Assembly (NCBI GenBank): GCA_009869945.1
Contig: WIXG01000099.1
Coordinates: 162,137-226,136 of the forward strand
Length of the DNA stretch: 64,000 bases
Direction: 5' to 3'
From: Mesaphorura yosii
Lineage: Eukaryota > Arthropoda > Collembola > Poduromorpha > Tullbergiidae
Part shown: positions 11,534 through 13,038 of the stretch, one piece after another
Numbering within the stretch: the first letter of the stretch is position 1
How the letters are laid out: each line of letters starts with the position of its first letter
Program-made: the position numbers and the translations under genes
Notes under the pieces: generated by a model
Databases searched by the model: none
The model's input: the letters and a program-made list of their open reading frames with translations, nothing else
What the model was told of the DNA's origin: nothing

Positions 11534-13038
11534 ATGGTGTTGACCAATGGGAACATTCTTAGCAAACTTTCCAAGAACGACATCATTCAAGAGGATGAGA
11601 CGAGAAAAATAGTTACCGAATTTAATGCAGCGTGGCCAAGATTACTGGCGGAGCTGTCAGAAGACGAGATGCTGAAAGACATTCGTGAGAGTATGGTGTG
11701 GTTGGATCACGTGCTCAGAGAAAACGTTCCGTTTGGAAAACAGAACAGGTAACGCAATCGCAATATACAAAGAAATTAATTGCGAATTAGAAAAATAGAC
11801 CTATGGTATGAGCTTATCGCATTTACTATTATTCATTACCGAATGTCCTTCAGAGCGCTGGTGGGCATCTTGGTCTACTTCCAACTCACGAAAGATCAAG
11901 TCCACGATGATGAGGAGAAGTTCCTGTGCTACGTCAGCGGCTGGTGTGCAGAAATTGTAAGCGCCAAGCATATTATTGCCCTAGATTTCGCATTTCCAAT
12001 GAAATTTACAAAGTGCATACTTTTCCACTTCCACCACGCAGATGCAAACCGCCGCATTGATTGCCGACGACATCATGGATGGTTCGAAGGAGAGACGCGG
12101 AAGACTTTGCTGGTACAAGCATGACAACGTCGGTGTGTCCGCGTTGAACGATGCCTTTCTGCTGGAGAATCTTTGCTACCACATTATGTGGAAATACTAC
12201 AGCGGTCAAGAGTACTTTATCCGGCTACTCAAGACCATCATGGATACAGGATTTCGGACCGTGCTCGGACAGAGCCTCGACACCCGCCTGAGCTTCGAAG
12301 ATGACCTCGAGAAGTATGAAAGAAAATGGCAACCAGTCGGCAAGGCAAGAGTGATCATGCTAAACAGGTTTCGTATGTTTCTTTCAGGTTCACAATGGAC
12401 ACTTACAAAGCCATCGTTAAGTATAAAACATCTTACTATTCGTTTTACACTCCAGTGTCAGCTGCCATGATTCGAGTAAGGTTCGGGCATTAATTATATT
12501 ACACAGAATCCAGTCACGTATGAGTCATGAATGAATCCTGAAATTCTGAGCAGGCTGGTCTCACGGATGTGCAGCTGTTCAACACAATCGAGAACCTGGC
12601 TTTGGAAATGGGCTACCTGTTTCAAGTGCAAGATGACTTTCTAGACTGCTATGGACTGTCTGATGTGACTGGCAAAGTTGGGACCGACATCCGTGACAGA
12701 AAATGCACGTGGCTAATTGTTACAGCACTGAAGGATGCGAGTCCTGAGCAAAAAGAATGCTTGCAAGTTCGTGCCTGAAACTCTATCTGGCTAGAATTGC
12801 TGGATTTCTCTTGTAACGAAGTTGGTTTCTTTTCAAGGACGTGTATGGTTCTAAGGATAGCCAAGACGAGAAGACGGTTCAACTCATTTACGAAGAACTG
12901 AACATCGAGCAGAAGTACCGGCTGCACGAAGACTGCGTGTATAAAGAGATTTGTCAAATGATTAACTGCCTGCCCAACGTAATTCCGAAAGAGCCTCTGA
13001 ATGCTCTGTTGAACAGCATTTATAAACGCAACAAGTAA
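11534..13038 (+). CDS. Farnesyl diphosphate synthase family protein
   Basis: Six exons, 363 aa: 11534-11748, 11854-11956, 12042-12313, 12388-12475, 12554-12766, 12838-13038. Family members condense IPP with DMAPP and GPP to make FPP, the precursor of juvenile hormone/methyl farnesoate, dolichol, ubiquinone and prenyl groups. Seen here: the first Asp-rich motif in LIADDIMDGSKERRGR, the conserved WYKHDN and KYKTSYYSFYTPV segments, the second Asp-rich motif in FQVQDDFLDCYG, and GKVGTDIRDRKCTW. Length is normal for animal FPPS and there is no obvious mitochondrial leader. Oddity: the two residues four and five before the first motif, normally Phe-Phe in animal FPPS, are Ala-Ala, which may change product length. 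The start is the first ATG in the frame. An AATAAA follows the stop by 29 bp. Confidence 0.93.

Follow-up and report, generated by a model that had tools for sequence, protein, structure and literature searches.

The window, by which we mean the whole 64-kb stretch of Mesaphorura yosii DNA analyzed here, contains a complete gene for an FPPS-type protein of the polyprenyl synthetase family, whose stretch QTAALIADDIMD carries Ala-Ala at the site of the Phe-Phe pair of avian and human FPPS. What is new here is that the enzyme does not stand alone: it is one of six FPPS paralogs that lack the aromatic gate, and the genome that carries them is rich in terpene synthases. We consider it somewhat better than an even bet that the encoded protein is an FPPS-family elongase devoid of that gate, which most likely releases GGPP and has been recruited, together with its paralogs, to specialized terpenoid metabolism; its product length, its role in vivo and the feeding of a terpene synthase by the window copy are what we infer.

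The aromatic pair before the first DDxxD motif is the textbook chain-length gate of FPPS. Bulky residues at −4 and −5 relative to that motif set chain length, and avian FPPS with the double substitution F112A/F113S elongates its product up to <C50 (PMC7887238). The same source describes the FPPS-derived Cys-Ala paralogs EuTPT1, 3 and 5 of Eucommia, which make ultralong trans-polyisoprene, a product abolished in EuTPT3 when its gate is changed to Tyr-Phe. With a single substitution, the fungal FPPS mutant Y90A yields FPP and GGPP (PMC11048977) and avian F112A has served as a GGPP source (PMC7003354), so that the sequence-only reading of this gene was right to hold that small gate residues lengthen the product. 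Among 452 DDxxD sequences aromatics predominate at both gate places, the survey section giving no count for doubly small pairs; it also notes that a Zea mays FPPS with FF makes GGPP as well, so the aromatic pair alone does not decide the product (PMC3679732). In the limited collection of literature searched, no earlier description of arthropod FPPS paralogs with small pairs was found.

Results

Gene Structure and Gate Residues

The window gene comprises six exons (Table 1) separated by introns of 105, 85, 74, 78 and 71 nt, all five bounded by GT-AG, and its joined frame of 363 aa has no internal stop. A displaced exon 2/3 boundary could in principle have put other residues at these sites, a possibility raised in the sequence-only reading; a scan of positions 11990-12100, however, finds the AG before 12042 to be the sole acceptor that keeps both the frame and the DDxxD motif. 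Splicing can furthermore be dismissed as the source of small pairs in general, because two paralogs, C116 and C144, carry theirs inside uninterrupted exons.

Table 1. Features of the small-pair FPPS gene, in window coordinates
Feature	Position	Strand	Remarks
Window gene	11534..13038	+	six exons
Candidate TATA box TATAAA	11426..11431	+	string match; 108 bp 5′ of ATG
Exon 1	11534..11748	+	ends in IPP-binding motif GKQNR; R split by intron, phase 2
Exon 2	11854..11956	+	..GWCAEI
Exon 3	12042..12313	+	starts MQTAALIADDIMD; open frame holding exon 3 matches Pfam PF00348, E 3.9e-19
Ala-Ala codons	12051..12056	+	positions −5/−4 before first DDxxD; Phe-Phe in avian and human FPPS
First Asp-rich motif DDIMD (first DDxxD)	12066..12080	+	read from the sequence
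Exon 4	12388..12475	+	FTMDTYKAIVKYKTSYYSF..
Exon 5	12554..12766	+	PF00348 E 3.6e-20 on open frame holding exon 5
Second Asp-rich motif DDFLD (second DDxxD)	12632..12646	+	inside exon 5
Exon 6	12838..13038	+	C-terminal IYKRNK; stop included
Candidate polyadenylation signal AATAAA	13067..13072	+	string match; 29 bp 3′ of stop

In a phmmer search with the window protein, avian FPPS chains rank first (E 1e-84), and the avian and human matches together span 1e-84 to 4e-75. The aligned gate stretch reads MQTAALIADDIMD in the window protein, ELFQAFFLVADDIMD in avian FPPS (1fps) and ELLQAFFLVADDIMD in human FPPS, with FQAFFLVADDIMD and LQAFFLVADDIMD, respectively, as the avian and human residues before the first DDxxD; together with the exon model, this alignment bears out the original observation of Ala-Ala at the chain-length positions −5 and −4. 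The top solved match is itself an engineered gate variant, the mutant avian chain 1ubx, which reads ELFQAASLVADDIMD with Ala-Ser for Phe-Phe. The window protein is 41% identical to avian FPPS; it and the mutant chain share the FPPS family, the catalytic motifs and small residues at both gate positions, and differ in that the avian pair was made by mutagenesis whereas the window gene is natural and one of six paralogs.

The remaining catalytic machinery, which the sequence-only reading had described as intact, is so at every position checked: 19 of 19 residues of the IPP site, both Asp-rich motifs and the allylic site are identical to those of avian and human FPPS, the list of positions, like the human FPPS numbering used throughout (138 and 139 included), being one that we assume. 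The protein thus shows the type I FPPS features of a PF00348 domain, animal FPPS as closest relatives, both DDxxD motifs and the IPP- and allylic-binding residues, and lacks another, aromatics at both −4 and −5. With type III GGPPS, represented by human 2q80 and by the C154 gene of the same genome, it shares non-aromatic −4 and −5 residues and a DDxxD without insertion (TAALIADDIMD); it does not, however, group with GGPPS by sequence, being only 19% identical to C154 as against 41% to avian FPPS. The window gene being FPPS-derived, any GGPPS activity would be convergent. Codon comparison with three paralogs gives pN 0.37-0.39 vs. pS 0.74-0.81, with synonymous sites saturated, and this constraint indicates that the Ala-Ala gene is more than a chance sequence.

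Six Small-Pair Paralogs in One Genome

Searched with PF00348, the genome to which the window belongs (93.0 Mb in 1127 contigs) returned 22 exon-level matches, with C150 and C277 under the curated cut-off. Eight FPPS-type genes were modeled, namely the window gene and seven paralogs, the latter with a custom splice-aware aligner. Two of them, C71 and C284, carry Phe-Phe and are the second type of FPPS gene that the sequence-only reading had proposed to look for; with these in place, FPP supply presumably does not depend on the window gene. The other six have small pairs at −5/−4: AA in the window gene and C116, SC in C144, and SA, GA and SV in C242a, C242b and C242c. All 19 active-site positions are also kept in C71, C284, C116, C144, C242a and C242b.

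Five of the seven paralogs (C71, C284, C242a, C242b and C242c) share the alignment column of the phase-0 exon 2/3 junction with the window gene, and the exon 1 junction column is common to the window gene, C71, C242a, C242b, C116 and C284. C116 and C144 have no intron at the exon 2/3 column, and their gate stretches read QSAALIADDMMD and QASCLIADDIMD, respectively. At least one intron position is thus shared among seven of the eight genes, from which we conclude that the family expanded from a normal FPPS gene of animals; these shared introns, together with the finding that animal FPPS stand nearest to the window protein among solved structures, also rule out a bacterial contaminant or a recent transfer as the source of the FPPS genes. 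Seven bacterial relatives in genome contigs, all reading NFTLVHDD with a single aromatic at −5, are too distant to inform (27-30% identity), and viral contigs gave no relatives.

Rooting the tree on vertebrate FPPS unites the six small-pair genes in a single clade (ultrafast bootstrap 99, SH-aLRT 97). With the distant GGPPS as outgroup the best tree splits them, although a single clade is not rejected (AU p 0.257). On the simplest account, the aromatic pair would have disappeared a single time, following a duplication whose ordinary Phe-Phe copies went on supplying FPP. All seven codon pairs tried, of which two involve C242c, show constraint (pN 0.20-0.39 vs. pS 0.74-0.83, synonymous sites saturated).

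C242c (L010 8290-9599, minus strand) is the exceptional member: alone among the six it lacks seven active-site residues (G56, D103, D107, R113, D174, K200 and D243), and it has extra residues inserted close to each of the Asp-rich motifs. With an open frame that is nevertheless unbroken and codons under constraint (pN 0.25-0.27 vs. pS 0.76-0.82 in two pairs), it is a candidate for a new activity.

Further prenyl synthases are present. C154 is type III-like, with human GGPPS 2q80 as best solved match (E 1.9e-105); C853 is a long-chain enzyme as judged from its motif only; and C241 and C7 are two divergent copies, known from partial models only.

Helix E and the Length of the Product

The mutant and Eucommia precedents for small gate residues make an open pocket with a product of C20 or longer the best reading. 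How far elongation would proceed depends on what else lines the pocket, and here position 138 of helix E draws attention: it is S/C/S/A in four Phe-Phe sequences vs. L/V/I/F/F/V in the six small-pair genes. Position 138 adjoins the layer that closes type III GGPPS (yeast Tyr107/Phe108), and a changed packing of helix E could close the pocket of the window enzyme again in part. It is for the larger residues at 138 that we favor C20, and the step is a weak one. While 138 belongs to a set of nine columns, out of 326 without gaps, where the small-pair residues are all larger than any Phe-Phe residue, as many as 44 of the 326 separate the two groups, so that a column specific to one clade is nothing unusual; four of the six small-pair genes have a smaller residue at position 139, so that the net volume change is modest; and EuTPT3 has His, a large residue, in the 138 column of a hand alignment and still makes ultralong chains, so that bulk at this site need not shut the pocket. 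Position 139 and EuTPT3 both weaken the idea that residue 138 compensates as a strict rule.

These observations bear directly on two other readings of the product. An unlikely one is that elongation in the open pocket runs on to C25-C50 or further and the product is a long all-trans prenyl diphosphate, as in the Eucommia TPTs and the avian double mutant. In its favor, both gate residues are small rather than one, the Ala-Ser avian chain is the closest solved structure and EuTPT3 tolerates bulk on helix E. Like the window gene, EuTPT1, 3 and 5 (7buu) are FPPS-derived paralogs with a non-aromatic pair standing beside normal FPPS genes, the EuTPT3 stretch reading QACALVLDDIMD; they differ in being plant enzymes with six extra residues inserted and a modified dimer (PMC7887238). 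Compared with human FPPS, the window protein has nothing inserted in that region, which on our reading is the helix 3-4 loop; the Ser-Cys paralog C144, however, has an 11-residue insertion where EuTPT3 seems, again on our reading, to have its extra loop. The larger residues at 138 in all six genes also speak against long chains.

Those same residues are the main argument for the converse reading, quite unlikely in our estimate, in which other residues close the pocket, Ala-Ala reflects a repacking of helices D and E, and the enzyme makes FPP only; the frequency of group-separating columns, the smaller residues at 139 and the EuTPT3 His all count against it. GGPP, either by itself or together with FPP and chains of somewhat greater length, would remain the most likely product of a pocket predicted to be open beyond C15. 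For release of both products there is a partial natural parallel in the apicomplexan bifunctional FPPS/GGPPS, which is likewise of FPPS type, lacks an aromatic at one gate position and yields both FPP and GGPP; in Plasmodium and Toxoplasma, however, only −5 is small (Ser or Cys) and −4 is aromatic, the Toxoplasma facts being second-hand (PMC3679732).

Terpene Synthase Genes and Their Linkage to Small-Pair Loci

A profile search of the genome with PF19086 (Terpene synthase family 2), which we take to cover terpene synthases of bacterial and fungal type, gave at least nine matches, and a second search with one terpene synthase protein as query gave at least 16 exon-level matches, the query included. 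By our count their union covers at least 19 places, a lower bound that includes C970 with its internal stops. Five terpene-synthase-like proteins compared with NCBIfam terpene cyclases gave weak matches far below the curated cut-offs, so that no product can be named.

Linkage to terpene synthases is seen at two of the four small-pair loci, C242 and C116, and not at that of the window. Three terpene-synthase-like genes lie within 5 kb of these two: in the C242 array, a terpene synthase in a 425-aa open frame sits between two FPPS copies (L010 4656-5930), and the C116 copy is flanked upstream by a terpene synthase (PF19086 E 3.2e-6) and downstream by a weaker match (E 9.5e-5; 22.7 bits vs. a Pfam cut-off of 23.7), in which the first Asp-rich motif is not evident and which aligns at 37.5% to the C349 terpene synthase over 357 columns. 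The chance expectation is about 0.01 such genes within 5 kb of the four loci for 18 scattered genes, vs. three seen, although this estimate, run with 18 and 40 genes, assumes scattering and, the terpene synthase genes being partly tandem, overstates the significance. A profile of twelve such proteins finds no convincing terpene synthase in the 64-kb window, its best match (E 0.059) being the FPPS exon itself, and none lies on contigs C99, C144, C71 or C284 among the matches listed in either genome search.

Long single open frames at L016 539-2563 (C241, 675 aa), L031 2750-4480 (C1022, 577 aa) and L035 2231-4243 (C581, 671 aa), and partly L017 (C7), seem to join a degenerate N-terminal prenyl synthase to a C-terminal terpene synthase domain, an order that we take to be the reverse of that in fungal terpene synthase-prenyltransferase chimeras. 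The second motif of their prenyl synthase domains reads QAENDF, QAEGEF and QAELDF in C241, C1022 and C581. C241 scores with PF00348 only, C1022 and C581 with PF19086 only; C581 nevertheless aligns to both, across some 500 columns, and the alignment of C1022 with C241 covers 243.

Two further contigs carry terpene-synthase-like frames. On the 11.7-kb contig C1048 (L029 2682-8826), a 391-aa terpene synthase lies beside an SDR-like frame and P450 frames, one of which scored with NCBIfam P450 models, the others being judged by eye; this is a candidate terpenoid cluster, whether of the animal or of a contaminant. C556 (L036 1-7000) has four terpene-synthase-like frames in DNA of 52% GC vs. 41% in the window, with at least two further matches along the contig.

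Other oxygenases and possible consumers of prenyl diphosphates were also seen. There are 12 DIOX_N matches in the genome, which may be acquired genes or contaminant contigs; the best of these genes scores 469 bits to another 2OG oxygenase vs. 95 bits to isopenicillin N synthase. A single-frame 2-oxoglutarate oxygenase at L041 874-1962 (minus strand) has 9ovh, an ethylene/succinate-forming enzyme, as its nearest solved chain (E 7.6e-140). Carotenoid or sterol use of GGPP or FPP found no backing: the sole SQS_PSY gene, with three exon matches, looks like NDUFAF6, and the genome search found no squalene-hopene cyclase domain.

Discussion

In light of these comparisons, we propose that the window gene would encode an FPPS-family trans-prenyltransferase that has kept its catalytic motifs and lost the two aromatics that stop elongation at C15, and that the six-paralog set was probably recruited to specialized terpenoid metabolism, as the class I terpene synthase genes at two of the four loci suggest. 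The initial interpretation of a possible C20-or-longer enzyme is thereby upheld in part: the Ala-Ala pair is real, the checked residues are intact and lengthening has precedents, and the case has widened from one gene to six small-pair paralogs. Several findings count against our proposal. The room left by the aromatics may be filled again by the larger residue that each of the six genes has at 138; a dedicated GGPPS already exists in the genome; the Zea mays FF enzyme, the GGPPS-rooted tree, the window without a terpene synthase and the sub-cut-off gene downstream of C116 weigh in the same direction.

Altered IPP-binding or Asp-rich motifs mark the IDS-derived terpene synthases of insects, and chrysanthemyl diphosphate synthase is an FPPS-derived irregular coupling enzyme. 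We think it very unlikely that the window enzyme is itself a terpene synthase, an irregular coupling enzyme or a partner subunit: although IDS-derived terpene synthases arose repeatedly in insects (PMC13143122) and the related C242c has lost seven active-site residues under continued codon constraint, neither of the Asp-rich motifs nor the Lys and Arg that bind IPP are altered in the window protein, and C242c is the sole exception among the six.

Expanded terpenoid gene families are known from other arthropods. The termite expansion resembles the present one as such but is GGPPS-like and derived from GGPPS, and termite FPPS-like proteins have disrupted FARM/SARM motifs (PMC13143122). Trombidid mites likewise have expanded terpenoid genes, with laterally acquired terpene synthases akin to microbial ones, though neither "farnesyl" nor "geranylgeranyl" occurs in the main text of that paper (PMC6275457). 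The arginine kinase of the present genome leans toward a pancrustacean rather than a mite: with the two-domain chains 4rf6 (526 bits) and 4wo8 (446), whose scores are sums, set aside, decapod chains score highest (464 to 449 bits), followed by 7re6 (444), Limulus (about 425), Daphnia 6ky2 (417) and the spider 5u8e (417). COX1 gave no match. In springtails, [7]-[9]-terpenes were found in the cuticles of 16 of the 23 species analyzed, and the authors assign them to the ubiquinone pathway (PMC11321324); that the small-pair enzymes are an alternative source of these long chains is offered here as a hypothesis only.

Natural FPPS-bodied enzymes without either gate aromatic have been described from plant polyisoprene synthesis (PMC7887238). 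A broader and still doubtful proposition is that an arthropod lineage removed the gate from duplicated FPPS genes and clustered them with terpene synthases, so that the C20-and-longer prenyl diphosphates of its specialized terpenes come from FPPS paralogs. The natural six-member series (AA, AA, SC, SA, GA, SV), with two Phe-Phe controls in one animal, is a ready system that would test the coevolution of gate, helix E and product length. The occurrence of small-pair paralogs near terpene synthases suggests an animal pathway making longer terpene chains, and the linkage would, if true, mean an animal terpenoid gene cluster and hint at the way in which some arthropods make higher terpenes.
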